From assembly GCA_902788315.1 (NCBI GenBank), contig CADAJS010000016.1, positions 1 to 64,000 of the forward strand: a stretch of 64,000 bases of DNA, in the 5' to 3' direction. Below, piece after piece: positions 21,779 through 54,645 of this stretch. Position 1 is the stretch's first letter. Every line of letters begins with the position of its first letter. Both the position numbers and the translations under genes were made by a program. A model generated the notes under the pieces. That model was not told the origin of the DNA and searched no databases. It was given only the letters and a program-made list of their open reading frames with translations. This DNA comes from an uncultured Bacteroidales bacterium. GTDB taxonomy: Bacteria > Bacteroidota > Bacteroidia > Bacteroidales > Bacteroidaceae.

Positions 21779-21845
21779 ACGATTTTGTTTAAGGGTTAAT
21801 ACTGTTGTTCGTGTTTTCTTTATTCTATTTAAGGAAATGTTGGAA

Positions 21846-22967
21846 TTATTGGAGGTGCGCCCGCTGACGGGCCACATTGCGTTCGAGATATTCGTCGAGG
21901 GTGATGCCCTCCGACTTGTAGAAGCAGGAACGGGCAGTCTTCACAGTGCCCAGCCCGGTGAGTACGGCATCGGGCACGGTGGTCACCTCGCCTCGGCGGA
22001 TGCGCTGCTTCAGTTCCTCGAGCCGATAACGATTGATGTATTCGTGTACGTTATTGTATCCCTGACTGCGCAGGCATTGCAACATCAGGTGACGGTTGAT
22101 GCCCACCTCGCGGCACAGGCGGTCGCGCCCGAAGGAACTCTCCATCCAGGCCTCGGGATGGTGCTGCATCCAGTATTCGGTACGGTGGAATCGTTGCAGA
22201 TTGGCTTCGTTGAAGTCGTCTTCCTCACTCTCGGAGTCCGGTGCTGGTGCAGGCTCCTCCTCGACAATCTTGATAGAGGGCTGAGGGAGCTCGAGCGCAA
22301 TGGTCTCCAGCGTGCGAAACACCAGATAGAGATTCAGTATGGTGAAGATGAGATGATAGACCATCAGAAGTGTGATGTCATAGAAGAGCACCACGTAAAA
22401 ATAGAATACCACAGAAAGGCCAAGTGCCGTACAGTAGGCCAGAAGATAGCGGGGCACATCGGCATGACGGGCCAACTGACGAGGCAGACGGAAGATATTG
22501 ATGATATAATACAGGCTAAGCCCCACTGCTGCCAGACGGCACATGACATCGACCGAGAGCAGATGGTCCATCACCTCGCCCCACGACATCAGGAAGACAA
22601 TGCCGTGATTATATGGCAACGTAAGTGCATAGATGCCATAGAGGATGATGATGGGCAGAGCATAGCCCCACATACGTTCCCACTGGAGAAAGCCAGGCAT
22701 GGGAATGCTCAGCGGATAAATACTCTGAAGGAAGATACCGGCCAGGAAGGCAAGCAGCACCACTGGGTTCAGAATACCCGGAGGAAAGGTGGCAATGGTA
22801 TCGGAGAAGAGGGCCTCGCCCAGGAGAATAAAACCGAAGATGCCGTTTACCCACGCCAACGTAAGGTATTGCACGCGGTGACGTGCATACAGTGCCATCA
22901 CACTGGCCGCCAACAACTGGGCTGTAGCACAGCATGAGAAGATTACCAAAATCGCGCGTAACGACAT
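21846..22967 (-). CDS. Membrane-anchored AraC-type transcriptional regulator
   Basis: This 373-residue protein has about seven transmembrane segments in residues 1-225 and a charged linker (about 235-255, rich in Glu, Pro and Asp). A C-terminal AraC/XylS-like helix-turn-helix region follows (about 265-370, with LCREVGINRHLMLQCLRSQGY, YRLEELKQRI and FYKSEGITLDEYLERN). DNA binding directly from an inner-membrane sensor is unusual and is known in Bacteroidota. It is a monocistronic gene on the same strand as the LamG/T9SS gene, 67 bp upstream of it, so that gene is the likeliest target; the DUF4493 locus is also possible. Confidence 0.85.
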   Translation of the reverse strand: MSLRAILVIFSCCATAQLLAASVMALYARHRVQYLTLAWVNGIFGFILLGEALFSDTIATFPPGILNPVVLLAFLAGIFLQSIYPLSIPMPGFLQWERMWGYALPIIILYGIYALTLPYNHGIVFLMSWGEVMDHLLSVDVMCRLAAVGLSLYYIINIFRLPRQLARHADVPRYLLAYCTALGLSVVFYFYVVLFYDITLLMVYHLIFTILNLYLVFRTLETIALELPQPSIKIVEEEPAPAPDSESEEDDFNEANLQRFHRTEYWMQHHPEAWMESSFGRDRLCREVGINRHLMLQCLRSQGYNNVHEYINRYRLEELKQRIRRGEVTTVPDAVLTGLGTVKTARSCFYKSEGITLDEYLERNVARQRAHLQ

Positions 22968-23111: not shown

Positions 23112-24860
23112 TCAGAAGACCACCTTGCGGCAGCGGCCGTCGGCATCACGAACAATATGGACACCCTTGGAGGGACGGGAGAGGCGCTGGCCACCGAGGC
23201 TGTACACCTCCTCTTGTCCAGGCGATTGCGGTAGGTCGATATCGTGGACATACGTGGTGTTGCCCCAATCATCGATAAAGGCCGACCGCACCTTGACTCC
23301 TGCCACGCCTGCCGGTGGCGTGATGTAGGCGGTGAAAGCGTTGAGGGTGGCTGAGGCAGCGCCCAGCTGGAGAGCGCCAATGGAATTAACGATGCCATAC
23401 AGGCCGCTCATGGAGAATCCGGCGGTAAAGTTAGAGGTCATCTGCCAGTCGGCATAGCTGTCGCCATGGGGGGAGGCGGCGGTGCCATATCCCGAGGCGG
23501 GCGTGATGGTCTGGGATTCGGCAGCAGGGAGGTCGATATCGGTCCACGACGGGTCGGTCACCGGCTGTCCGAGATGGAGGATATAGGGCTGGAAGGCCTG
23601 AATACGCCCGGTCGTAATCTGTCGGAAGAAGAGTGTATAACCGTCCTTCGCATTATAGGTGACGGAGGATAGCTGCGCCACCCAGTCGTCCTCGGACGAA
23701 CGGCCCGTCAGCGCCTGAACCGTGGTGGCAAAGGGGAGGGCCAGGGTGCTGTACCCCTGCAGGAAGGTGCGGTGCAGGGTGACAGTCTCATAGAGGTCGA
23801 CATCATACTGGGAACTGGTGGGCTCCAGGGTGATGACGTTGGGTTTCTGCTCAAACACGGCGTAATAGGTGACGACGGTGGGACTGCTGGAACTCTCAGA
23901 GTCGTATGTGTAGGCGGGCGTTTGGAAGTCGGGGTCGGTGCTGACGTATGTAGCATCAGAGAGGTCGCGCTTCCAGCCGACGAAGGCATATCGCTTGTTG
24001 GGAACGGCACGATAGTAGGCTGTGGCGCTGGCATTAGAAGCCGTGGTAACACCGCTGTTCTTCGTGTCGGACGTCGCCGTGGCTGCATCAAAGGAGGTGA
24101 AGCTCACGTAGGCCGAACCGCCGTCGGTGGCACCGGCCGTCGCACGAGTGTAATAAGTAGTCTGGCCCACGCCAGTAACCTGGAACGTGACGGTCTTGCC
24201 ATTCATGGTCAGCGTCACGGTGCCGGTGTGTGTGCCTGCACTGGTGGGGGTGAAGGTGACAGGGATAGCCTGGTTCTCGCCCGTGGCTCCCACGGTGGTC
24301 GGGGTAACGGTGAAGTTCGGGTCGGTGCATGTGCCCGTCACCTGCTGATTGTAGGTAGTGTTATTATAGTTAATCTGCGCGTTGAGGCTGGAACTGCGGC
24401 GGTTGGTGACGGTACCGAAGTCAAGCGTAGTGGTCGAAGTGGAAAGGGTGGTGGCGCGGGTTACCTTGACGTTACTATAAAATTTCCTTAATGTAGCACC
24501 GGTTTTTGTTATAAAACGGATGTGAGTAACATCTGTGGTAATACTGTGAGTCTTTGTTGTATTGCTCGTCGAGACATCATCATGTGCCAAGTCGGACCAA
24601 TTGCTACCGCCATCCGTAGATGTCTGAACATAAATACCGCCCAAACCAGGTATCCCCAAAAAGGTGTTAGTATATACTTGGTATGTTAAAGTTGCTCCTG
24701 GCCCTGAAAGTGCCATAGCGGGACCATCAGCAATAGTATTTAATTCACCACCGGCATTTTCCAGCACATAGCTGGTGGTTTCTCCCCAGGCACGTGCATT
24801 TATGCTCGCCATGCCGAGGGCAAGTATCAATAGGATTCTATGTAGTATATGATGTCTCAT
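23112..24860 (-). CDS. Secreted beta-rich protein with Ig-like domains and T9SS-type tail
   Basis: This 582-residue protein has a signal peptide (ending NARA, about residue 24). The N-terminal region (25-135) looks like a discoidin/jelly-roll type domain (TSTDGGSNWSDLAHDD, HIRFITKTGATLRKFYSNVKV). An ASPM/DUF1573-like Ig domain follows (about 140-235, TLDFGTVTNRRSSSLNAQI, IPVTFTPTSAGTHTGTVTL), then a repeat-type segment with YAFVGWKRDLSDATY. It ends in VYSLGGQRLSRPSKGVHIV and a basic tail, a T9SS type A pattern. It is the last gene of the DUF4493/PCMD array, 7 bp after the previous one, and is probably its surface-exported member. Coding DNA at 24470-24840 is clearly more AT-rich than the rest. 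Confidence 0.8.
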   Translation of the reverse strand: MRHHILHRILLILALGMASINARAWGETTSYVLENAGGELNTIADGPAMALSGPGATLTYQVYTNTFLGIPGLGGIYVQTSTDGGSNWSDLAHDDVSTSNTTKTHSITTDVTHIRFITKTGATLRKFYSNVKVTRATTLSTSTTTLDFGTVTNRRSSSLNAQINYNNTTYNQQVTGTCTDPNFTVTPTTVGATGENQAIPVTFTPTSAGTHTGTVTLTMNGKTVTFQVTGVGQTTYYTRATAGATDGGSAYVSFTSFDAATATSDTKNSGVTTASNASATAYYRAVPNKRYAFVGWKRDLSDATYVSTDPDFQTPAYTYDSESSSSPTVVTYYAVFEQKPNVITLEPTSSQYDVDLYETVTLHRTFLQGYSTLALPFATTVQALTGRSSEDDWVAQLSSVTYNAKDGYTLFFRQITTGRIQAFQPYILHLGQPVTDPSWTDIDLPAAESQTITPASGYGTAASPHGDSYADWQMTSNFTAGFSMSGLYGIVNSIGALQLGAASATLNAFTAYITPPAGVAGVKVRSAFIDDWGNTTYVHDIDLPQSPGQEEVYSLGGQRLSRPSKGVHIVRDADGRCRKVVF

Positions 24861-24867
24861 TACTGTC

Positions 24868-25611
24868 TTAATCGAATGTTCCGCTATAGTTGCCGTCGGC
24901 CACTGGGATGATTACGCCTGTGGCTGGGTTTGCCTTGAGTGTGATGGTGGTGTTATAGCCAGCCTGGACATCCACGTAGCCGGTGGAATGTGGCATATCT
25001 GTGGCATGACTGCCTGCAAGTGCGCTGGCCGTGATGGTGTAGGCCAAGGCTCCACTGGCAGGAATGACGAAGTAGCAATCCTCCTCGGTCGAGTGAAGAG
25101 TAATAGAGCGCTCGCCATCGGAAAGCGTGAGGACTGGACTCTCATAAAGACTGCTGAACGACTCATCGACAGCCATCGTCAGGCGAGCATTCTTGGGCTT
25201 CCCCAGGGTGATTGCCACGGACTGAGTCTCGTTGACATCGATGGAGAAAGCCTCGGAGGTACCGCGGTACCAGGGACGTCCATTGCCACGGTTGGCTTCC
25301 TCATGGTTGTCTGCCGTCAGCGTATAGGTGCCGGCATTCACCTGGGCAGTGCCATCGGCAGCAACATCCAACACGAGGTCTGTGACCACCGCGCCACTGA
25401 TTGTCGTTCCGCTGAGGGTGAAGGAATATTTCGAGAGGTCGGCAACGGGGGCCTCGGCTCTCGTATGGAGTTCCGTGAAGACCTGGGCATCGTCAAGCGA
25501 CAGGACAATCGTAGCAGGGCCGTCGGCCACGGGCTGTTCATCGCGGTCGTGCTGGCAAGCACACAGGCTGAGTGCTGCAAGGCTGAGGATTATGGTGGTG
25601 AGTCTTTTCAA
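24868..25611 (-). CDS. DUF4493-type surface lipoprotein (paralogue 6)
   Basis: This 247-residue lipoprotein has its signal ending LSLCAC (Cys19), followed by acidic residues (QHDRDEQP), a pattern that sends lipoproteins to the surface in Bacteroidota. Two beta-sandwich domains are inferred. The first runs to about residue 130 and includes the repeated motif AGTYTLTADNHEEANRGNG. The second begins near KNARLTMAVDESF and ends with GYNTTITLKANPATG. It belongs with the DUF4493 group because the paralogues in this operon share the order lipobox, basic TRA segment, GTYT strand and FxxxY strand. Function unknown. Confidence 0.72.
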   Translation of the reverse strand: MKRLTTIILSLAALSLCACQHDRDEQPVADGPATIVLSLDDAQVFTELHTRAEAPVADLSKYSFTLSGTTISGAVVTDLVLDVAADGTAQVNAGTYTLTADNHEEANRGNGRPWYRGTSEAFSIDVNETQSVAITLGKPKNARLTMAVDESFSSLYESPVLTLSDGERSITLHSTEEDCYFVIPASGALAYTITASALAGSHATDMPHSTGYVDVQAGYNTTITLKANPATGVIIPVADGNYSGTFD

Positions 25612-25639
25612 TGTTCTATGAACTTATAGGATAAATGGT

Positions 25640-26398
25640 TCATGTGCCACTGGTGGCATCAATGGTTATATCGGACTCGGCATCCCCCTCGAACTCGTTA
25701 TCGCAGGTGAGGCTGACTGAGAGTATGCCATAAATGTCCGACTTGATCTTCAGTGTGGAGACGGTAGCGGCATCACCCAAGGTTAGCGTCGCAGGAGCGG
25801 TGGTCTTGGTCTCTTCGCCAATGGTGTAAGTAATCGCATAGGTGAGGCTGCTTCTGGGGGAGAAGAAGGCTTCATTGGCCAGTGTGCCGTCGTCATATGC
25901 AAAGGTAAGCGTCTTGGGCGACGTGATGGTCAGGGCATTGATGATGCCGGAGAACTCGGAGTAGTCCAGACGAAACTTGGCATTGAATGCCCGGCCACAA
26001 GCTACATGTACGTAAGCAGTGCCGCCCGCAGAAACCTCGATGCCCGAAGTCGAACCCATGTGGTAGGCATCACCCCAACCGTCCTTTGCGGCATTGGCTG
26101 CATTGATATCGTCGTAGTTGCGAACAGTGACGGAGTATGTGCCGGGGTTGAACGCACGGGTGCCCAGCTCGCTCCCTATCTGCTGGTCGTACAGAGTCTC
26201 TGTACCATCGGAGACCACAGCATACCATGTTTCAATATCAGCCACATCCCGTACGGCACGTGTGCTCGCATCATCATCTGCCGTGAGCCGCACCTGGATA
26301 TAGCCCTTGTCGGCAGGGGCAAGGCTGGTGTCTTGCTGGCAGTTCTCCAGAAAGAGGACTGTAACGAAGCAGAGCAATATGGTCGTAATCTTTTTCAA
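25640..26398 (-). CDS. DUF4493-type surface lipoprotein (paralogue 5)
   Basis: This 252-residue lipoprotein has its signal ending FLENC (Cys20), then QQDTS. It carries the family segments GYIQVRLTADDDASTRAV, NPGTYSVTVRNYDDINAAN and AYVHVACGRAFNAKFRLDYSEF, the last being the start of the second beta-sandwich. The C-terminal strands contain KSDIYGILSVSL. It sits 13 bp after paralogue 4 and 28 bp before paralogue 6, all co-directional. Its role in the surface complex cannot be named. Confidence 0.75.
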   Translation of the reverse strand: MKKITTILLCFVTVLFLENCQQDTSLAPADKGYIQVRLTADDDASTRAVRDVADIETWYAVVSDGTETLYDQQIGSELGTRAFNPGTYSVTVRNYDDINAANAAKDGWGDAYHMGSTSGIEVSAGGTAYVHVACGRAFNAKFRLDYSEFSGIINALTITSPKTLTFAYDDGTLANEAFFSPRSSLTYAITYTIGEETKTTAPATLTLGDAATVSTLKIKSDIYGILSVSLTCDNEFEGDAESDITIDATSGT

Positions 26399-26411
26399 TT
26401 GTTCAGGATAT

Positions 26412-27167
26412 TTAGTAGAGTGTTACTTCGCTGACTATCTCTTCATACGTATCATCATAGCTGATGCCTATCACCAGCTTCGTGGGATCGTCATCGCTGG
26501 AGAATGTATAGGTGACGTTATAGAGGAGTCCCGCCTTAGGGCTCTCGTATGTCTGGGTTTCGAGGTCATAGACTTCGCCATCCGTATTCACCAGATGAAG
26601 CGAGAAACTGAAGCCTTCTGCGTTGGAGGGGTCGAAATAGGCTGCTTGGTCGGGGGTGATTTGACAGCTGCGCCCATCACCGGAGACGGTGAACTCGCAA
26701 GTGGGGAACCACTCAGAGAACCTCTCAGGTACAGAGTACGTGACGCCATAGTTAATCATCGGTACCTGCACATTAAGGTAGGTGACCCAATCGGGCTGTA
26801 CGCTGAATGCCTCGCGCACCTCATAGACGGCGGCTCCACGCCCGTCATTTTCGGTCTGCCATGTGGCGGCATTCTCAGAATACGCGTGTAGTGTATAATC
26901 TGCAGGAATGAGAGAGAACTTGTCGGGCAGAGCCTCTCCTGCAGCATATTTATAGCCACGATAGACATTGCCGTCTGAGGCAAGAATCTCTACGGCCAGG
27001 TCGGGATCGACAGCATTGCGTGTCATCACAGAGGACCTGGCTGCCCTCTGCAGACTGAGGTCGCTGACCACGAGTGTCCCCTCACCTTGGAGAACATCCA
27101 AGCGCTCCTCGTTGCTGCATGCAGCGAGAATGGATAACAGGATGAATATATAGAGAATCTGCTTCAT
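26412..27167 (-). CDS. DUF4493-type surface lipoprotein (paralogue 4)
   Basis: This 251-residue lipoprotein has its signal ending LAAC (Cys17) followed by SNEERLD, an acidic surface-export pattern. EGTLVVSDLSLQRAARS is the usual first strand with basic residues. PADYTLHAYSENAATW is the GTYT-type motif, and INYGVTYSVPERFSEWFP opens the second domain. The last strands are KLVIGISYDDTYEEI. The gene is separated from the 606-residue paralogue by only 3 bp, so the two are translated in sequence from one mRNA. Confidence 0.75.
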   Translation of the reverse strand: MKQILYIFILLSILAACSNEERLDVLQGEGTLVVSDLSLQRAARSSVMTRNAVDPDLAVEILASDGNVYRGYKYAAGEALPDKFSLIPADYTLHAYSENAATWQTENDGRGAAVYEVREAFSVQPDWVTYLNVQVPMINYGVTYSVPERFSEWFPTCEFTVSGDGRSCQITPDQAAYFDPSNAEGFSFSLHLVNTDGEVYDLETQTYESPKAGLLYNVTYTFSSDDDPTKLVIGISYDDTYEEIVSEVTLY

Positions 27168-27170
27168 GAC

Positions 27171-28991
27171 TTATTGCCCGTATTTGAAGGTGAGGGATGA
27201 GATGTAGGTACACGTGGCACCGGCTCCATAGTCGTTGTAGCATCTCAGGGAGGTGATGTCGTTGTTCGCAGCCAGGACAATCGTGGTGCCCGAACTGTTG
27301 TGGTCCGTGCCTACGAGGAAGGTGCCACCCGATTCCTTGATCGAGAGGATAACCTGAGTGCCGGCTGTGATGGAGAACGTGGTGCCGACAGTTCCCGTAT
27401 GTACATTGACATTGTAGTCAGCACAGTATTTGGTTCCCCGGGGAATATAGACAGAGGTCGTAGTGGTGATGCTCTGGTCGCCAGTGGAATAGTAGCCAAG
27501 GCGTACATTGCCAGCATCCCATGTAACGCTGCCATCCTCGCTCCATTCACTATGTGAACTGAGGTTAAGCGAATAGGGCAGCCCCGTAATGCGCACTTGC
27601 TTTGTGCCGCTGACGTTTTGTCCTGCAAAGTTCCCTACAACCTGGAATGTGTACAGGTTTCCGCTGACAGGCACGCCTGTAATATTATCAAAGGTCATCT
27701 GCTGCCGAGTGGCTGCAGTGGTAAAGCTCTGCCCTCCGATGCTGTATGTAAACGTCTTGGTATAGTTCGCATTGGAAAGCAGGGAGGCAGCCACATTCCA
27801 CTCTGCCGAAGGACTGTACACCGTCAGGCGTTCGCAGGCGTTCGCAGCCTCAATATCCCCTTCCTCATATTTAGTATAAGAGGTATAAGCATTTGCCGTC
27901 AGCGTCAAGTTGGCATTCGGCACTGTGAACGTGGTCGTCTTGCTGAAGTTGTACCACTTCCCTTGCTTGCTGCGATATCGGTAGGTGGCAACATACGTGC
28001 CTGGCGGCAGGTATGGCCAGTCGCTCTCGTCAGCATAAGAGGAGCTGAGGGCACCCTCGCCAGTAAGGGTTCGCACGACATTGCCCGATGCCGAGCCTTG
28101 GTGTATCCGAGCCTCCCAAGTTGCATCAGGGAACGAGGCACCTATATGGAGGTCGGTACCCACAAGGTCACCACGTAGATATTTGTGCTCTGTGCTTACA
28201 GCAGGGCGAGGCAACCAGTCATACGACACCTTCTCCTCCACATCGGCCTTCGTCAGTTCAGCCTTCGTCACGGTGACAATGGCACTCTCCGACTCATCAT
28301 TCAACACAAGGGTGAGGATGAGATGATCGGCAGCACCGAGTGTGTACGATACGTCCTCGGGCAACGTGATGTTCATGGACATTTCGCGCTCCAAGGGCTT
28401 ATAGTATCCGGAAAAGGTGAGCGTAACGGTGCTTCCTGCCCGCACATAGACGCTTTTGCCAGGAGCCTCGTTGGTGATGGACGCACTGCTGGTGCCCACG
28501 CCGACGTTCACCGCATAGCTCTCGTAGAAGTGGTCAAAGCGTGCAGCCTCTTCCTCGTTTGTGCCAAAGACAGCCGATACGAGGGCATTGCCCACACCGA
28601 CAGACACCGTGACCGGCGTAGGCTCGGTGGTAGATTCGACAGTGGCAGTGGCCGTACCCAGATAGTATGGTGTATCCAGACCGACGATGGGATTGGTGCC
28701 GTAGTCCACCGTGATGGCATAGTCATCAGGAGCCGCATTTATCTTCTCGGTGGTGAATGGCCCGTCATATTGGACAGCCCCGTTACTCTCTCTCACAATG
28801 TGGAGGTGGAAGTCGGAGGGCTGAGGCTTGCCTATCTCTGCGGGTGTGCTACGAGTGCCCGACACGTCAACCGACACGCCTTCGATAGACAGCTGCAGGC
28901 CCCCAACAGGCTGAGGCTCGAAGGAGTTCTCCGAGCAAGCTGCCATCAGGATGAGCAGTACGAGGCTGTATATCGCAGTGTGTCTATTCAT
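27171..28991 (-). CDS. Long DUF4493 lipoprotein with extra beta-rich domains (paralogue 3)
   Basis: This 606-residue lipoprotein has its signal ending LMAAC (Cys19), then SENSFEP. Residues 25-250 are two DUF4493-like sandwiches (GLQLSIEGVSVDVSGTR, PDDYAITVDYG, ALVSAVFGTNEEEAARFDHFYESY). Residues 270-480 add Ig-like modules with DATWEARIHQGS, PPGTYVATYRYRSKQGKWY and a NAYTSYTKYEEGD region. The end (485-606) resembles a jelly-roll, with AGNVRLGYYSTGDQ and TCTYISSLTFKYG. Its start overlaps the end of the PCMD gene by 8 bp, so the pair is coupled. The multi-domain layout suggests a large surface adhesin or binding subunit. Confidence 0.75.
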   Translation of the reverse strand: MNRHTAIYSLVLLILMAACSENSFEPQPVGGLQLSIEGVSVDVSGTRSTPAEIGKPQPSDFHLHIVRESNGAVQYDGPFTTEKINAAPDDYAITVDYGTNPIVGLDTPYYLGTATATVESTTEPTPVTVSVGVGNALVSAVFGTNEEEAARFDHFYESYAVNVGVGTSSASITNEAPGKSVYVRAGSTVTLTFSGYYKPLEREMSMNITLPEDVSYTLGAADHLILTLVLNDESESAIVTVTKAELTKADVEEKVSYDWLPRPAVSTEHKYLRGDLVGTDLHIGASFPDATWEARIHQGSASGNVVRTLTGEGALSSSYADESDWPYLPPGTYVATYRYRSKQGKWYNFSKTTTFTVPNANLTLTANAYTSYTKYEEGDIEAANACERLTVYSPSAEWNVAASLLSNANYTKTFTYSIGGQSFTTAATRQQMTFDNITGVPVSGNLYTFQVVGNFAGQNVSGTKQVRITGLPYSLNLSSHSEWSEDGSVTWDAGNVRLGYYSTGDQSITTTTSVYIPRGTKYCADYNVNVHTGTVGTTFSITAGTQVILSIKESGGTFLVGTDHNSSGTTIVLAANNDITSLRCYNDYGAGATCTYISSLTFKYGQ

Positions 28992-30717
28992 ATATCAGTT
29001 TGAAGTCATCCACCTTCAGCTGCGATCCCTCACCGCCGGTGAAATAGTCTCCATATTTCGACGAAGCCGCCACCACGATGATGGTGGTCGGAGTTCGGTC
29101 GTTGTAGTAGTGTATGTCAATAGTCTCTGTGGTCCACGAGCTGACGTCGTCGCCACACGTCATCTGTCCATAGCCAATGAGATTGGGGCTGTGCATATCC
29201 ATAAGGCTCAGCGCGCTGGGACGCGTACGTATAAGGTATGGACAGGTGTAGGTGACTCCGCGCGAGGTGTAGGTGACCGGTTCCCAGTCGCCCAGTGCGA
29301 TATAGACGCTGCACGAGTCTGGCTGTCCCTTCATGCCCTCGTACATCTCTCGTGGGATATACTGCCCCCACGGCTCCTTCCAGTCGCCTCCGGTACGAGT
29401 GACGGGAGCCGTCTTGTACTGGAAGTCAAACTGCATCTTTGCAGGTCGCGAGCTGAAGGGACGTCCAAAGGACAGCACTCCGTTGGTACCGTCAGTCTCG
29501 ATATACTTGCCCGTAAAGATGTTGCCGGCCGCAAACTTGATGACAATGTACTTCGACTGCAGGTTGGCATATCGGCGTCCGTCTTCGTCCACATAGGTAC
29601 TGTTGCTCGCCCCCACCGTGGTGGCGCCATGATTTCCTGTATCCCAGTATTCATCACCTCCTTCGGCCCAAGGGCAGTAGAGTGCCTTCGTCCCCTCGCC
29701 TTCGATGTGCCAGTCGTTGAAACTGGCATTCTTCAGCTGTTCACCCTGAAAGTAGAAGGGCTCGCCTTCAATCGTCTTACCTCCAAATGTCACACGGCAG
29801 AGGTACTTTACATCTGAACGAAGTGCAGAAAGCACCACCTCGTAGGACGTGGAAGAGGGGTATCTGACATCACTCTGGGCCACAGTGGTCCAGACAGAGG
29901 TACTCTCCTCACGATATTCCACGACGGGGGTCACTCCGTTGGGTCTCATGCCGGAGATGACGGTGGCCCCTTTGTCGTTAGCCGAGACAGTTACAGTAGG
30001 CTCTACGGACGCTTCGGTGGGGAAGACATAGACCTTCCATTCGTAGGACAGCTCGCTCCAGCCCTCCTGCACATAGAATATACATTCGTCAGAGAAATCG
30101 TATGTGGGTCGCGCCGTGGGATCGGGCACCACCTTGCCGTGCTCGCCACCCAGGTTGAACTTTGTCACCTTCAAGGCGCGCAGATCCTTCTTGTCGCTCA
30201 CGTAGATGATGGCCACGCGGTTGCCTGCATCGACAACGGCATTGCCCACCTGCCCCTCGACCTCGACATCGCGATGTATGATTTGCTCCACCGTCACGGT
30301 CCAGTCATATTCCTGATAGGTCTTCAAGGTGAATATGGCATCCTGGGTGAAGTCCACCCGTGTGTTCGCCGTGGCAGGAGCCGATGCAAAGCCCTTCTTT
30401 GGGAAGGCCGAGGCATCGACACACGTCACGCCTCCGGTCAGGATCTCGGCATCGTTGCTCACCTCCATGCGCGTAATCTTCAGCGCCGCCGGGTTCACCA
30501 TGTCATTGACATAGGCCTTCACCGTACGCGAGGCGTTATCTATTTCGGCAGCAGCCATGCCTGTACCGGTGGCATCACACTGTCCCTCCACTTCGAAGGC
30601 CGTGATGGCCGAATCGACGATGGGATAGGGGATGTCATCCTTGATGGCACAGCCACAGAGGCACAACAGAGTTGTGCCATACAGTACATATCGGATAGTC
30701 TTATTCTTCTTCATCAT
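28984..30717 (-). CDS. PCMD-domain surface lipoprotein (copy 2)
   Basis: This 577-residue lipoprotein has its signal ending CLCGC (Cys23), followed by AIKDDIPYP. The N-terminal half holds several Ig-like repeats (DYDWTV-type strands; VEGQVGNAVVDAGNRVAIIYV; SVEPTVTVSANDKGATVISG). The C-terminal 260 residues are a PCMD (putative carbohydrate metabolism domain) jelly-roll: KYIVIKFAAGNIFTGKYI, PFSSRPAKMQFDFQY and the end SKYGDYFTGG with VDDFKLIYE. The matching stretches are shared with the DUF4493/PCMD gene at 32242-34065. It overlaps the barrel gene at its start (ATGA), which couples barrel and PCMD expression. PCMD domains bind or process glycans by inference only. Confidence 0.82.
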   Translation of the reverse strand: MMKKNKTIRYVLYGTTLLCLCGCAIKDDIPYPIVDSAITAFEVEGQCDATGTGMAAAEIDNASRTVKAYVNDMVNPAALKITRMEVSNDAEILTGGVTCVDASAFPKKGFASAPATANTRVDFTQDAIFTLKTYQEYDWTVTVEQIIHRDVEVEGQVGNAVVDAGNRVAIIYVSDKKDLRALKVTKFNLGGEHGKVVPDPTARPTYDFSDECIFYVQEGWSELSYEWKVYVFPTEASVEPTVTVSANDKGATVISGMRPNGVTPVVEYREESTSVWTTVAQSDVRYPSSTSYEVVLSALRSDVKYLCRVTFGGKTIEGEPFYFQGEQLKNASFNDWHIEGEGTKALYCPWAEGGDEYWDTGNHGATTVGASNSTYVDEDGRRYANLQSKYIVIKFAAGNIFTGKYIETDGTNGVLSFGRPFSSRPAKMQFDFQYKTAPVTRTGGDWKEPWGQYIPREMYEGMKGQPDSCSVYIALGDWEPVTYTSRGVTYTCPYLIRTRPSALSLMDMHSPNLIGYGQMTCGDDVSSWTTETIDIHYYNDRTPTTIIVVAASSKYGDYFTGGEGSQLKVDDFKLIYE

Positions 30718-32099
30718 AAATAGAACGTCATACCCAGGTTCACGCTGAACAGGTTTATCTTGAAGTTAGCGCCGCCCGAGCGGTTGCGTCCTGTCTCCAC
30801 ACGGTTTGTCTCCTGATCCACCCACTTGTACTTCAGTCCCATCACGCCCACCGAGCACTCCACAGCCATGAAGTTGGTGGCAAAGGCCGTCAGACCCGGG
30901 CAGAATCCCAGCTGGATGGAGTTCACATGCTCCATGGTTCCGTCGAATTCGACGCCCGTGCCGGTGGTGTACTTGCCCTTCGAGTAGCCGTAGGTGAGGC
31001 GCACCTCGTTGAAGAAGCCGAACACCTTGCTCCGGCCCAGCGGCATGTAGGTGCGCACGAAGGCCGAGGCATCATAGTTGTGCTCCAACAGGTAGAGGTC
31101 CTTGAGGCTTATGTTGAAGTCCTCGCCCAGGTTGAGGTCGAAGTTGCCCAGGTTGAAGTAGTATCGGCTATAGTTGAACCGACCGCCCACGGCGATGTTG
31201 TTCGCCACGAAGTATCCCACGTAGGGGCTTGCCGAGAAGGTGTGTCCCTTGCAGTTGATGTCCTTCAGCACGAGGTAGTTCAGGTTGTCGCCGTCCCACT
31301 CGTTGTAGGAGATGCTTCCGCCGAAGAGCCACTGTCCCTTGGGGATGAAAAGGGCGGTGAGTTCCTCTCGCGAGACACGCTCGATCCGTCGCCCTTTCTG
31401 CTCCTGCTTGGTCATGTAGCGGTTGTAGATGCTTCCAGGGCCATCCTTCAGTGGTCGCTGCCTGCTGCCTACAGTCGGCTGATTGCCCACGGGCATTTGA
31501 TGGTACACGCCGGTTGTTTCTTCCGCCGCACTGTTCACAGCCTCCTGAGGGGCATTCACTGCCGTCTGCGCCACGCTGGCAACCTGCTGCGGCTCGTCCA
31601 CCTCATTCTTTGTTTCGCGGGCAGCCATCTGCGACTTTCGGGCAGCGCCCTTCGATTCAGCGATTACCAAGCCCTGCAGCGGAACGCTTTCATGTCCGTT
31701 CTTCGTAGCCTTCAGGGTGATGCGGTTCCTACCTATATTATAATAACGCACGAGCCGGTTGTACACGTCCTGTGCCCGATCCTTCTCGCCAAGGATGGTC
31801 ACGGTGGCCTTGGGATGATTCCTCAGGTAGGTGGCCACGTCGGCGAGTTGAGCTGTTCCGCCATCAGCTTGCACTACGAGGTCGCTCCCATCGCGTTCGC
31901 CGAGTGCCCTGCGCACTCCTTCCTCCACGGCTCGGGCTATCACATCGCTGGTCAGCTCTCCCTTCTGGGAACGCTCCTCCTTTACGTTGATTCTCACCTC
32001 AACGTCCGTAGGCGTGGCCGACTGCGGCGTCTGTGCTCCCAGCATGGCGGGGCAGAGCCACAGGAAAAGGGTTGCTGTCAGGAGATTGTTTCTGTTCAT
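30714..32099 (-). CDS. Outer-membrane beta-barrel protein with OmpA-like N-terminal segment
   Basis: This 461-residue protein has a signal peptide (MNRNNLLTATLFLWLCPAMLGA). The N-terminal 30-160 stretch contains LADVATYLRNHPKATVTILG and DVYNRLVRYYNIGRNRITLKA, the arrangement of an OmpA-type peptidoglycan-binding fold. A Gln/Ala-rich linker with charged patches (160-245) follows, then an eight-strand-like barrel (about 265-461) ending KINLFSVNLGMTFYL, with the terminal aromatic expected for barrel assembly. It is the only barrel in the DUF4493/PCMD array and overlaps the PCMD lipoprotein gene by 4 bp. I infer it is the outer-membrane anchor of the surface complex. Confidence 0.82.
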   Translation of the reverse strand: MNRNNLLTATLFLWLCPAMLGAQTPQSATPTDVEVRINVKEERSQKGELTSDVIARAVEEGVRRALGERDGSDLVVQADGGTAQLADVATYLRNHPKATVTILGEKDRAQDVYNRLVRYYNIGRNRITLKATKNGHESVPLQGLVIAESKGAARKSQMAARETKNEVDEPQQVASVAQTAVNAPQEAVNSAAEETTGVYHQMPVGNQPTVGSRQRPLKDGPGSIYNRYMTKQEQKGRRIERVSREELTALFIPKGQWLFGGSISYNEWDGDNLNYLVLKDINCKGHTFSASPYVGYFVANNIAVGGRFNYSRYYFNLGNFDLNLGEDFNISLKDLYLLEHNYDASAFVRTYMPLGRSKVFGFFNEVRLTYGYSKGKYTTGTGVEFDGTMEHVNSIQLGFCPGLTAFATNFMAVECSVGVMGLKYKWVDQETNRVETGRNRSGGANFKINLFSVNLGMTFYL

Positions 32100-32120
32100 A
32101 TTCTTCTTTCTGCCGTCCGA

Positions 32121-32135
32121 TGCAGCCAGGCTGCA
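32121..32135. repeat. Perfect 7+1+7 palindrome
   Basis: TGCAGCC-A-GGCTGCA is symmetric around one base and lies just upstream of the barrel gene start at 32099. A C-rich hairpin follows at 32189-32218. No promoter motif is visible in this 142-bp gap, so the barrel gene may depend on readthrough. Confidence 0.55.
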
Positions 32136-32188
32136 GCAGAGGACGTTCTCTTCTCCGCGGTTGTCCGCGTGCTATTAAGCGCAAGGCA

Positions 32189-32218
32189 TTCCCCCCGCCA
32201 CCTTTTGGGCGAGGGGAA
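32189..32218. repeat. C-rich/G-rich hairpin between PCMD and barrel genes
   Basis: TTCCCC with CGCC on the left can pair with GGGCG and GGGGAA on the right around an ACCTTTT loop. It is one of four such hairpins in the window and could attenuate transcription from the upstream PCMD gene into the barrel gene. Confidence 0.55.
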
Positions 32219-32241
32219 CGTCTCACATCACTGTTTGTTGT

Positions 32242-34065
32242 TTAGTTCTTCACTGTCGGCGTATCGCCATATACCAGCTCGAAGTCATCGAGATAGAGCG
32301 TGGATGAATCGCTTCCGTAGAAGTAATCGCCATAGCGACTTGACGAGCAGACAATGATAAGATGCGTAGGCTTCTTGGTAAGGCTGTGGTACTCCAGAGG
32401 AATATCAAACTCCTTCCACTCTCCGTTCGAGTTCACACACTGTTCTGCAGGCAGTGTACCATAAGCAACTACTCGGGAATCCGTCTGCCAGTTGGGGAAG
32501 TTGTCCATATTCGTATTGTCAATGGAAACCATCGCCGTGGTCAGCACGCAATAAATCTGACATTGGTCAGGTTGTCCCTTGGCAGGAGCACCCGAAGGTG
32601 CCGTACCGCGATTAATGTTACCTGGTTCATACTGCAGGAAGCCGTGAAGGCTCGTCGGACGACTGCTAAAGGGAACACCCCAGTCGAGGACAGCACCCTT
32701 CGTACCTACAAGATGGTTGAACTTACCTGTGAAGATACTTGCAGCAGCAAACTTGATAATCACATACGTTGATGACAATTTAGCCGCATACGATCCGCTA
32801 TGTACTACGGATTGTGTACCCGTCGTAACGTTATAGCTGTCGCCCATGCTGGCCGAACCCGGATTACTGGAACTCCAATAGTATGTGGTAGCATTAGCTT
32901 CATCATCAGAACCTGTCCGATTGGGAATACCGCTTTCGTTGGGATACCATACGCTTCCGGCCTTATACCAATTTTCGAAGCCGCCATTGTAGAGAGCCGT
33001 CTGTGCCTCCGTCGTGAAGTTGGACTCCTGGCTGTACACCTCGTCATCGCCTGTGACATAAGCCAGACGATAGGTGTACTGCGTGGCAGGCGTCAGGCCC
33101 TTCACGGTGTATGTCACATCGTCGCCGCTGATGGTGAGTGCAGCGTTGTCCACCGTGGTCCAGCTGTCGGCACCAGTGATCTTATACTGCAGTTGCAGCT
33201 TCGTCTGGTCGAAGTCGCTCTTCTTCGAAGCCACCTTACCCGAGAGGTCGGCAAACGTGCTCCATGCATTGGCGGTGTACACGTCGAGCTGCGTACCGCT
33301 CTTGCGTGGCACCTCGAAGGTATAGGTGTAGGTGTTCGTGGTGGGGTCCACCTTCACCGTCACGTCGCCCTGATAGCCGCTGGGAGCCACCGTATAGTTC
33401 AGGATGTAATGGTCGCGTGCCTGCACTCCGGTGATGTCAGTGTTCATGCTGTGGCCCTCATTGCTCTTGTTGAAGACGCTGAGGATGGCCTTCAAGTCGC
33501 CCACGGGGAAGTAGGAGGAACCCTTGGTCTCGCCCATCGTATATGTCTGCGAAGCCACGCCTGCGATGGTGGACTGGATAGTCGATGTGGCGCTGGCAAA
33601 GCTCTCCTGGAATTCAGTGGAGAACTTCACGGTTACCTTCACATTGGCCAGCGTACAGATCACGTTGGCGGTGCTGAGCACTTTGGTATGGATGTTCACC
33701 GTCGTAGTACCATAATAATAGGGAGCGTCCACGCCCGAGCCGCTGCCGTCCCATCCGTTGGAATGAGCCGTCACGGTGTACTGGCCGGGAGCCAGACGGA
33801 GCACCTGGCCTTTCAACTGCGTATCGTTGTCCCAGTCGGTGGTGCTGGCCACAATCTCACCTGCGGCATTGGTCACCTCCACATAGAGTTGCTTGGGTGC
33901 ATAGCCTGCGGGCACATTCGTCACACGTGTCTTAGCCACAGTGTTGGTCTCCACGCCAAGTGTCAGATAGCCTACCTGGCTGTCGTTCTCCTCCATCTCA
34001 CTGGAGCAACCGGTCAGGCAAGCTGTGAGGAGGAGTGCGGAAAGAATTGAATATATCTTTTTCAT
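32242..34065 (-). CDS. DUF4493 plus PCMD surface lipoprotein (copy 1)
   Basis: This 607-residue lipoprotein has its signal ending CLTGC (Cys20), followed by SSEMEEND. Residues 30-255 are DUF4493 (GYLTLGVETNTVAKTRVT, PGQYTVTAHSNGWDG, KVTVKFSTEFQESF). A fibronectin-like region (265-345) with TVKGLTPATQYTYRLAYV follows. The C-terminal 250 residues are a PCMD domain sharing STYVIIKFAAASIFTGKFN, PFSSRPTSLHGFLQY and SSRYGDYFYGSDSSTLYLDD with copy 2. DNA of the PCMD part (32280-32960) is visibly more AT-rich than the DUF4493 part. It lies 20 bp before the next paralogue and 142 bp from the barrel gene. Confidence 0.84.
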   Translation of the reverse strand: MKKIYSILSALLLTACLTGCSSEMEENDSQVGYLTLGVETNTVAKTRVTNVPAGYAPKQLYVEVTNAAGEIVASTTDWDNDTQLKGQVLRLAPGQYTVTAHSNGWDGSGSGVDAPYYYGTTTVNIHTKVLSTANVICTLANVKVTVKFSTEFQESFASATSTIQSTIAGVASQTYTMGETKGSSYFPVGDLKAILSVFNKSNEGHSMNTDITGVQARDHYILNYTVAPSGYQGDVTVKVDPTTNTYTYTFEVPRKSGTQLDVYTANAWSTFADLSGKVASKKSDFDQTKLQLQYKITGADSWTTVDNAALTISGDDVTYTVKGLTPATQYTYRLAYVTGDDEVYSQESNFTTEAQTALYNGGFENWYKAGSVWYPNESGIPNRTGSDDEANATTYYWSSSNPGSASMGDSYNVTTGTQSVVHSGSYAAKLSSTYVIIKFAAASIFTGKFNHLVGTKGAVLDWGVPFSSRPTSLHGFLQYEPGNINRGTAPSGAPAKGQPDQCQIYCVLTTAMVSIDNTNMDNFPNWQTDSRVVAYGTLPAEQCVNSNGEWKEFDIPLEYHSLTKKPTHLIIVCSSSRYGDYFYGSDSSTLYLDDFELVYGDTPTVKN

Positions 34066-34085
34066 ATTCGGTATGCCTTTTACTA

Positions 34086-35354
34086 TTAATCAACGGTCAA
34101 TATCAGTTTACCACTCTTCTTGTTGCCATCCATGTCTTCCACAACAAGATTGAACGTATGTTCACCTGAAAGGAAGCCGAGCAGGCCAAAGAAGTTTCCA
34201 ATGGGGAATGTGTAATCAATGTCGCCTTGTGAGGGCACGGAAAGCGGCTGATTCAAATCTGCAAACAACTGAACCACATCCGAGTTATCCACGATTTCAG
34301 CACCGCCAATAAAGTCCACTCCATAGTTCGTATTAAGGTCACTAAGGGATTCTATCATCTCGTCACTGGTGGACTGGATGGATACGGAGATGCTCTTAAT
34401 ACCCTTTTCACACTTGATGTACGTGTCGCCAAGGCTCTTATCTGTCGCGGCACTAACCGTCATGTTGTTCGGCAGATTCAGTGTGATGGCATCGTCGCCG
34501 CCCGGTGTGGGATCATCGGGAGTCTGGGGATCATCGGGATTCTCAGGGGTGAGTGTGCCGTTGTCCACCACGCTGATGGTCACGGTCTCGCTGGTCTCGG
34601 TGAAGACGATATTAGCCGAGATGCTGATGGTCACCTTGCCGGTCGTAGCCTCCACAGGCGTGAAGTTCACCACTACAGCGTCGCCGCCACCGAAGTTGGT
34701 GGTCTCGCCGTCGTAGGTCTCCGTGGCCTGGTCCTTCGTGAGCAGCTTCGAGGCAGTGATGGTGTTGCCGTCGGCCGTGGTGCCACGGAAGTTCACCGTC
34801 AGCTTGTCCACATTCTCTCCGAAAGCCCAATAAACGGCAGCGGGGTCGTTGCCATTCGTATTCTTGATGGAGAGTGCCTGGTCGCCACCGTCGTCGAAGG
34901 TGATGGTCCATGCAGTAAAGAGCGCGAGGAAGTCCTCGTCGTAGTTCACCTCGATGCTACCGTTCTGCTGCTTGCAGACGATGGTGGTCTGGGTGGTCAC
35001 GTCCTTGAGAATCTCCGACGTGGCAGTGCCCTTATAGTACGGATAAGTCATCTGGCGCTGCATGGTGCCGGGCGTATGTGCCTCGAGCACGTAGGTGCCC
35101 ACGTCGAGACGAATCTTTTCGGGCATGGCGTCCACCGCGTCGTAGCTCTCCACGCGAGTGGTGCCGTCTTCTTTGTAAATAGTCACAGGGAAGTCCGTCA
35201 CCTCGTACTCGCCGGCACGGGTGGCAGTCGGTTGGCGTGTGCTGACGTCGAGCGAGAGAACGCCCTTGTCGGACGAGCCTGTCATATCTTCGCTCACACA
35301 GCCTGTCATTGCGAGCAGGGCTGCGCATCCAAGAAGCAATTTATAGGATTTCAT
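34086..35354 (-). CDS. DUF4493-type surface lipoprotein (paralogue 2)
   Basis: This 422-residue lipoprotein has its signal ending MTGC (Cys19), followed by VSEDMTG. Segments DKGVLSLDVSTRQPTATRAG, LDVGTYVLEAHTPGTMQ and IEVNYDEDFLALFTAW are diagnostic of the DUF4493 layout. A Pro/Asp/Thr linker (NPDDPQTPDDPTPGG) separates residues 1-275 from a C-terminal domain (290-422) that ends with HTFNLVVEDMDGNKKSGKL, an Ig-like or DUF4493-terminal module. The C-terminal domain (34086-34460) is lower in GC than the rest. It is separated by 20 bp and 39 bp from its neighbours in the operon. Confidence 0.82.
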   Translation of the reverse strand: MKSYKLLLGCAALLAMTGCVSEDMTGSSDKGVLSLDVSTRQPTATRAGEYEVTDFPVTIYKEDGTTRVESYDAVDAMPEKIRLDVGTYVLEAHTPGTMQRQMTYPYYKGTATSEILKDVTTQTTIVCKQQNGSIEVNYDEDFLALFTAWTITFDDGGDQALSIKNTNGNDPAAVYWAFGENVDKLTVNFRGTTADGNTITASKLLTKDQATETYDGETTNFGGGDAVVVNFTPVEATTGKVTISISANIVFTETSETVTISVVDNGTLTPENPDDPQTPDDPTPGGDDAITLNLPNNMTVSAATDKSLGDTYIKCEKGIKSISVSIQSTSDEMIESLSDLNTNYGVDFIGGAEIVDNSDVVQLFADLNQPLSVPSQGDIDYTFPIGNFFGLLGFLSGEHTFNLVVEDMDGNKKSGKLILTVD

Positions 35355-35393
35355 AGTTTTCCTTATATTCTATTATGTTAAACAATCTGCGCA

Positions 35394-36218
35394 TCAGATC
35401 CAGCTGATGGGCACTTCGATATCAATCTGCTTGTCGTTGGTGGTCTCGTCGATAGTGATCTGGATGCTCAGGCCACCCTCTGTGGACGGAGTGTAGTTGG
35501 GGCTAATCTTCAGCTTGTATGCCTTGTTGCGCTCCAGCGTGAAGGTGCCCGTCACCTCTCCGTCGGTCTTCTTGGTGCCGTCGGCAAGCTGTGTGGCATA
35601 GTCTTCCTTGGCGGTGAGATGGATGGTGTAGGTCAGGGTCTCGCCGGAGGGATCGAGCGTAACGTAGTAGGGAGCTGTGTCCTCGCTGTTCCATGCAGCA
35701 TTTCCGGTGCCCATTGCAGCCGAGCCCGAGAAGTTCACATAGTACTGGCTGTAATAGGTGGCCATCGAAGCGTCAAACTGTACCGAGAGTTTTCCACACG
35801 TGGGGACACATGTCACGTTGGCGGTGATGTCCTTCCCAGCCTCGATGGAGAATGTGCTCTGGCCCGTCACCATGAACTCTTCGCGCGAAGCAGCGTGCTC
35901 GGCACCATAGGATGCCGTGATGGTGTAGCTGCCCAGGTCGAGTTCCATGGGCATACGGTCACGCAGCTGGGCATACGTGCCGCTGAACTTGGAGTTGCCG
36001 CGTGAATCGGCCACGTTCACCGTGTAGTTGTCATAGTTCTGATACGAAGACTCGTCCACTGCACGAGTCCCGGCCTCGAACTTCACGCCGGAGTTGAGGT
36101 CCAGCGTCAGCGTTCCCTTCTTTCCGCCGGTGCTTGGCTCGGTCGTGTCAGAGGAGCACGATGCAAGCATCCCAGCCATGCCAAGGGAAAGGCAAACGAA
36201 GATTGTTTTTGTTCTCAT
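35394..36218 (-). CDS. DUF4493-type surface lipoprotein (paralogue 1, first gene of array)
   Basis: This 274-residue lipoprotein has its signal ending LASC (Cys21), followed by SSDTTEP. GTLTLDLNSGVKFEAGTRAV, DLGSYTITASYGAEHAAS and KLSVQFDASMATYY define the two-domain DUF4493 layout. The start at 36218 is chosen because the signal peptide begins there; longer in-frame starts have no signal. It is the first gene of the ten-gene array. A -7 box lies at 36302-36309 and an inverted repeat at 36353-36391. It is the simplest paralogue and could be the minimal subunit. Confidence 0.84.
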   Translation of the reverse strand: MRTKTIFVCLSLGMAGMLASCSSDTTEPSTGGKKGTLTLDLNSGVKFEAGTRAVDESSYQNYDNYTVNVADSRGNSKFSGTYAQLRDRMPMELDLGSYTITASYGAEHAASREEFMVTGQSTFSIEAGKDITANVTCVPTCGKLSVQFDASMATYYSQYYVNFSGSAAMGTGNAAWNSEDTAPYYVTLDPSGETLTYTIHLTAKEDYATQLADGTKKTDGEVTGTFTLERNKAYKLKISPNYTPSTEGGLSIQITIDETTNDKQIDIEVPISWI

Positions 36219-36301
36219 ACACTTAAAGAATTTATAATTATTACTCATTTTCCACTCACATTCTATCCTCGCATTACTGCGCATGTACGCAAAATATGGC
36301 G

Positions 36302-36309
36302 CAAAGGTA
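36302..36309 (-). promoter_or_regulatory. Probable -7 box of the DUF4493 array
   Basis: The minus strand reads TACCTTTG, an exact match to the Bacteroidota -7 element. The predicted start near 36295 gives a leader of about 77 nt before the ATG at 36218. No TTG is found 19-21 bp further upstream, so another factor may be needed. Confidence 0.6.
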
Positions 36310-36391: not shown

Positions 36392-36602
36392 CAGAATGGG
36401 GAGAAACTCGATGAAATGGGCTATATTAGCTGATAAAAGGACTTAAAGGGAGCAATCCGACAAGCGAGAGAAGGTTCATTTTTTGCCAGCGAAACGTTTC
36501 ACGAACAGACATGAAATACGACATCGCAAGGGGACGAGGCGAGACGTGCCGAGGGGGGGCAAAACGCCACGCCAAAGAGTGCGGAACACCTCACCGCACG
36601 GA

Positions 36603-36658
36603 GGAGCGTGCTCCATCGGCGGGAAGAGCGTGCTCCGTTGACCGATGGAGCACGCTCC
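36603..36658. repeat. Three-copy 22-bp array (core GGAGC/GCTCC)
   Basis: Cores at 36603-36614 (GGAGCGTGCTCC), 36625-36636 (AGAGCGTGCTCC) and 36647-36658 (GGAGCACGCTCC) are exactly 22 bp apart. The third is in the opposite orientation to the first two. Linkers are 10 bp and not conserved. This is the second member of the family seen at 18681-18790 and 54590-54645. The rest of the 36219-36679 gap holds no gene. Confidence 0.88.
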
Positions 36659-36679
36659 GCCAGAAGGCGGAGCTGGAGG

Positions 36680-54589: not shown

Positions 54590-54645
54590 GGAGCACGCTC
54601 CACCCGCCCACGGAGCACGCTCCGTCCGCTCATGGAGCACGCTCC
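54590..54645. repeat. Three-copy 22-bp array (core GGAGCACGCTCC)
   Basis: The core GGAGCACGCTCC is identical at 54590-54601, 54612-54623 and 54634-54645, exactly 22 bp apart, with different 10-bp linkers. This is the third locus of the family. The rest of the 54542-54812 gap has only two small perfect hairpins (54686-54707 with arms GCAAGCAG/CTGCTTGC; 54733-54748 with arms AGCACT/AGTGCT) and no gene. Confidence 0.92.

Follow-up and report, generated by a model that had tools for sequence, protein, structure and literature searches.

A conserved DUF4493/PCMD lipoprotein and outer-membrane barrel array of Bacteroidales, possibly encoding a divergent type V pilus-like surface assembly

The described systems closest to the locus reported here include the type V pili. 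In those of P. gingivalis, cleavage occurs at Arg49 in the subunit Mfa1, at Arg43 in Mfa3 and at Arg54 in Mfa4, while the anchor Mfa2 stays uncut (PMC5789003). Clostripains cut type V pilins and also release surface lipoproteins in Bacteroides, including B. fragilis (PMC12632263). BT1927 is a surface lipoprotein with BT1926 as its putative 8-stranded barrel partner (PMC12578637), and for the PCMD family the structure of BT2081 (PDB 3hbz) exhibits a putative carbohydrate pocket (PMC2954218). No paper on DUF4493 was found in the open library searched.

The window, i.e. the whole stretch of 64,000 nucleotides that was analysed, contains ten adjacent ORFs, all located on the minus strand and spanning positions 36218-23112. 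Successive genes, from 1 to 10, are spaced by 39, 20, 142, -4, -8, 3, 13, 28 and 7 bp, and the ORF coordinates thus agree with the initial annotation, which had described one array with short gaps or overlaps except for the 142 bp preceding the barrel gene. The features are as follows:

36302..36309, minus strand: TACCTTTG, fits the Bacteroidales -7 box TAnnTTTG, 84 bp upstream of gene 1
35394..36218, minus strand: gene 1, DUF4493 lipoprotein, 274 aa, Cys21, T51-R52-A53 site
34086..35354, minus strand: gene 2, DUF4493 lipoprotein with C-terminal extension, 422 aa, TR at residues 45-46
32242..34065, minus strand: gene 3, DUF4493 - Fn3-like - PCMD fusion lipoprotein, 607 aa; candidate glycan-binding tip
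32100..32241, minus strand: gap before gene 4, 142 bp, strong hairpins (z -4.5); hairpin kept in relatives
30714..32099, minus strand: gene 4, predicted 8-stranded outer-membrane barrel (about residues 257-460) with N-terminal OmpA-like beta-alpha module and low-confidence linker
28984..30717, minus strand: gene 5, PCMD lipoprotein, 577 aa, without conserved TR site, CAIKDD export-type start; candidate uncut anchor
27171..28991, minus strand: gene 6, DUF4493 lipoprotein, 606 aa; C-terminal part lineage-specific (PCMD in other genera)
26412..27167, minus strand: gene 7, DUF4493 lipoprotein, 251 aa
25640..26398, minus strand: gene 8, divergent DUF4493 lipoprotein, 252 aa, TTG start, T-R-A site present
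24868..25611, minus strand: gene 9, DUF4493 lipoprotein, 247 aa, TTG start
23112..24860, minus strand: gene 10, secreted protein, 582 aa, sub-threshold ASH/choice-of-anchor-D-like Ig domain, T9SS-like tail by eye; accessory

DUF4493 was detected above the Pfam cut-off in the products of genes 1, 2, 3, 6, 7 and 9. The gene 8 product had no Pfam match, but joined DUF4493 in an iterated profile (E 3.7e-28). The earlier count of six DUF4493 lipoproteins, one of them fused to PCMD, agrees with the number above the Pfam cut-off, with gene 3 as the fusion, and the divergent gene 8 brings the DUF4493-type proteins of the array to seven. PCMD was found by Pfam in gene 3, fused to DUF4493, and in gene 5, which is the second PCMD lipoprotein that had been proposed. 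All eight lipoproteins of the array carry Asp or Glu within nine residues of the lipid Cys, as the earlier reading had it. The DUF4493 paralogues diverge strongly, with pairwise identities of about 14-25%, and comparison with PHROGs gave no link to a phage family.

Upstream of gene 1, no clear -33 box accompanies TACCTTTG. An invertible promoter was considered and rejected: the one strong inverted repeat upstream, near 36600-36661, forms a hairpin located behind the PPIase gene and does not frame the -7 box, and all else upstream of the -7 box region is a weak 13-nt inverted pair (85%). The palindrome GGAGCACGCTCC occurs five times in the window, at 36603, 36647 and within 54590-54645, where none would be expected by chance; three of the copies form a 22-bp tandem. 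Just downstream of the array, positions 21846-22967 encode an AraC-type regulator with a probable membrane domain, which was dismissed as a conserved regulator of the array since it was present in only one other locus.

Next to the gene content, we addressed the constancy of its order. Out of 75 named Bacteroidales loci, 68 have the complete core in order, i.e. DUF4493, DUF4493 with C-terminal extension, DUF4493-Fn3-PCMD, barrel and PCMD, and the seven loci lacking the full core are all interrupted by contig ends. Counted were loci of at least 8 kb that had been located via the barrel, so this number measures the constancy of the neighbours rather than the frequency of the locus. A scan with one genome per species yielded 80 loci; it used a closer set of 13 barrels, as the profile built from 35 barrels was too divergent for scanning the collection. 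Loci are found in isolates of Phocaeicola barnesiae, Mediterranea massiliensis, Bacteroides ndongoniae, B. ilei and Parabacteroides distasonis and in a Proteiniphilum MAG, and barrel relatives are present in 39 of 251 genomes of the family. Within the relatives' loci, 445 of 535 gaps between array genes measure at most 50 bp. Of the genes that follow the core, 37 bear PCMD and 33 have a different C-terminal domain; in Bacteroides and Parabacteroides, the C-terminal part of gene 6 is PCMD. In loci L038-L040, L093, L094 and L096, a second, divergent barrel gene lies further downstream with DUF4493 genes on its flanks, which suggests a partial duplication of the array.

The distribution of DUF4493 was also assessed without the barrel as query and hence independently of it. 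All six Pfam-level matches of the host genome fall within the array. Matches above the cut-off occur in 16 of 61 sampled genomes of the genus (host genome included), and in the 15 congeners, which have at least four copies each, these copies are located on a single contig in all cases but one, where two contigs are involved. Taken together, the array is conserved far beyond chance. The earlier proposal of a multi-subunit surface system had been held to fail if the genes were scattered and independently expressed in related genomes; they are not scattered, as the copies share one contig in 14 of 15 congeners and the core order is intact. Since gene order is kept across genera and families and the DUF4493 genes nearly always form one cluster per genome, the interpretation of the array as one conserved, uncharacterised multi-subunit surface system is well supported. 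As the locus occurs in cultured gut genera, i.e. Bacteroides, Phocaeicola, Mediterranea and Parabacteroides, it should be amenable to genetics.

The gene 4 product has no Pfam match of its own. In line with the previous description of an outer-membrane barrel with an OmpA-like part, it models as an OmpA-type beta-barrel (about residues 257-460) preceded by a beta-alpha module and a low-confidence linker; the nearest folds in the PDB are the OmpA transmembrane domain, NspA and OmpW. The N-terminal extension is mostly missing in relatives. Among 43 relatives in which the gap in front of the barrel gene measures 60 to 260 bp, this gap folds far better than shuffled sequences in 42. In a matched count, z fell below -2 for 37 of 39 pre-barrel gaps; among other within-array gaps this held for 4 of 21, and among gaps outside arrays for 20 of 57. 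The stems have a median of 19 pairs and are followed by a T-rich stretch in only 5 of 43 cases, and most of these hairpins are therefore unlike intrinsic terminators. No match was obtained in Rfam. Possibly the hairpin acts in RNA processing or stability and so sets expression of the barrel apart.

Gene 10, taken by the initial annotation as a T9SS-tailed part of the system, fared differently. A T9SS-like tail motif is visible by eye in gene 10 and its homologues, but the tail has no Pfam or NCBIfam match at E<=1. Among the named loci, all gene-10 matches stem from MAGs, mostly of ruminant sampling series, and none from named Bacteroides, Phocaeicola or Parabacteroides isolates. Gene 10 thus counts as accessory to the system and does not belong to its core. 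A search for SprA found none in the host genome, whereas 12 of 16 tested congeners possess it; the host does encode a peptidase C25 protein the size of PorU. In all seven tested genomes of the genera coded g3 and g13, which by contig match include Bacteroides and Phocaeicola isolates, SprA is absent and the core array is present. Export of gene 10 by T9SS is accordingly uncertain. A tail similar to that of gene 10 is carried by a 921-aa protein encoded at window positions 19112-21877, which has laminin-G-like, Fn3-associated and chitobiase C-terminal domains.

How might the lipoproteins work together? A [TS]R pair is present at mature residues 13-62 in 173 of 184 DUF4493 lipoproteins (median position 31), as compared to 115 of 546 (21%) control segments, and the residue that follows is Ala, Ser or Thr in 157 of these 173, mostly Ala. 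In an alignment of 105 DUF4493 sequences, Arg52 (gene 1 numbering) is conserved in 99, second only to the lipid Cys when the start Met is set aside. The G-x-L-x-L strand preceding it is conserved as well, and the T-R-A motif sits just behind this first beta-strand. TRA or TRT is likewise found behind a first strand in Mfa_like_1 (fimbrillin-type) lipoproteins that this genome encodes. The Arg of DUF4493 thereby matches in position the protease-cut site of type V pilins, where by analogy it may be cleaved. Gene 5, which does not belong to DUF4493, lacks an aligned TR site ([TS]R occurs somewhere in this stretch in 13 of 28 orthologues) and hence could represent an uncut anchor, as does Mfa2.

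The AlphaFold model of gene 1, based on the 105-sequence alignment, reached a pLDDT of 86. It places the first strand at residues 34-43 and Arg52 in the subsequent loop, and comprises two beta-sandwich-like halves as judged by strand count. When compared to the PDB by Foldseek, nearly all matches at E <1e-3 were to fimbrial or adhesin proteins of Bacteroidales, among them Mfa2, BT2657 and BDI_3522, with probabilities near 1, yet with TM-scores of merely 0.28-0.44. The predicted fold therefore looks fimbrillin-like, with the doubt that such TM-scores leave. Profile comparison detected no sequence homology between DUF4493 and fimbrillins outside the signal region, to which the hhalign alignment is confined. 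Pfam assigned only DUF4493 to these proteins, apart from weak Fimbrillin_C matches in 2 of 105, and weak matches of the DUF4493 profile to PDB sequences were discarded as lying in the signal region or arising by chance.

Two clostripain-family (C11) genes are present in the genome, one of which encodes a predicted lipoprotein and adjoins an Mfa-like gene: in L167 (own genome, C33; 2008-4820), it is located next to an Mfa_like_1 fimbrillin gene with an STRTA site. In L168 (own genome, C17; 635-6772), five lipoprotein genes lie in a row, at least two of them Mfa_like_1 and each with TRA; this is probably an ordinary type V pilus locus.

The type V-like Arg site and the pilin-like fold, both missed by the earlier reading although it recognised one system, suggest a likely mechanism. 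On the most likely reading, to which we give even chances, the array is an operon whose products form a divergent surface assembly resembling type V pili. The computed features behind this reading are the conserved set of genes, the lipoprotein signals, an Arg behind the first strand, the model of gene 1 with its fimbrillin-like fold, and the barrel. The DUF4493 lipoproteins would reach the cell surface, where an Arg-specific protease, probably of the clostripain C11 family, would cut after T-R and remove the lipidated first strand, allowing the cut subunits to join by strand exchange. The product would probably be a short fibre or a complex of defined composition, because there are several distinct subunits per cell and no single major pilin. 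It would be held by the barrel and the gene 5 PCMD lipoprotein, which is without aligned TR site, while the PCMD domains of gene 3 and, in Bacteroides and Parabacteroides, of gene 6 would act as tips with a glycan as presumed ligand. However, the long C-terminal parts of genes 2, 3 and 6 would block a C-terminal donor strand, and a dedicated 8-stranded barrel is absent from the published type V pilus descriptions that were compared. Because the fold is uncertain at these TM-scores, no membership by sequence was found, and polymer, cleavage and donor strand are deduced from genes and models, we do not file the array as a type V pilus. More tentatively, and with doubt prevailing, it might represent a separate class of Bacteroidales surface fibres, in which distinct DUF4493 subunits encoded in fixed order form clostripain-cut hetero-oligomers on a barrel base, with exchangeable PCMD or other tips and barrel expression set by the hairpin.

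Alternatively, the proteins could form a surface glycan-capture complex, in which lipidated monomers or a static complex surround the barrel, PCMD binds polysaccharide and the TR site merely serves protease release to the medium or to vesicles. The PCMD jelly-rolls do resemble carbohydrate-binding modules, clostripain frees surface lipoproteins in B. fragilis, and long C-terminal domains are ill-suited to shaft pilins. However, no glycoside hydrolase, SusC or SusD is recognisable by Pfam among the array proteins, and such a complex has no need for a fimbrillin-like fold or an Arg site at the first strand. We regard it as unlikely. The pairing of a barrel with lipoproteins would also fit a surface layer or coat of the BT1926/BT1927 kind, with the barrel anchoring a lipoprotein lattice, possibly for protection from phages. 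This is quite improbable: the array lacks a single lattice protein of large size (100 kDa), its promoter is not framed by strong inverted repeats, and seven or so diverse paralogues are unlike a lattice. The view that unrelated lipoproteins merely share a transcription unit or regulator, to which the low identity (about 14-25%) of the DUF4493 copies would lend itself, is already disfavoured by the core kept intact in 68/75 loci across genera and families and by 445/535 gaps of at most 50 bp, leaving it very improbable. Should the type V pilus-like reading be true, DUF4493 and part of PCMD would gain a function, together with an assembly mechanism open to testing. That lineages differ by exchange of the C-terminal domain of gene 6 suggests adhesion adapted to host or diet glycans.

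With type V pili, i.e. Fim and Mfa of P. gingivalis and the Bacteroides pilins of Xu et al. 2016, the array shares lipoprotein precursors with acidic residues after the Cys, a conserved Arg following the first strand, two beta-sandwich-like halves in the gene 1 model, and a clustered arrangement in which one subunit may be an uncut anchor and others, bearing C-terminal domains, are tip-like. One member of the Mfa cluster, Mfa5, is exported by T9SS, and gene 10 may be likened to it. In contrast to these pili, the array proteins belong to a separate Pfam family without detectable sequence similarity, there is no obvious single shaft pilin, and a dedicated outer-membrane barrel, PCMD domains and a conserved pre-barrel hairpin are present. 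The phase-variable S-layer locus BT1926-BT1927, likened here by description only, shares the combination of surface lipoprotein and putative 8-stranded barrel, but differs by its 100-kDa lattice protein and invertible promoter, neither of which was seen in the array with its many subunits. The PCMD family, represented by BT2081, is related through the PCMD domain of genes 3 and 5; BT2081 is a two-domain protein, whereas in the array the PCMD domain is joined to DUF4493 or a different N-terminal region, within a putatively pilus-like operon.
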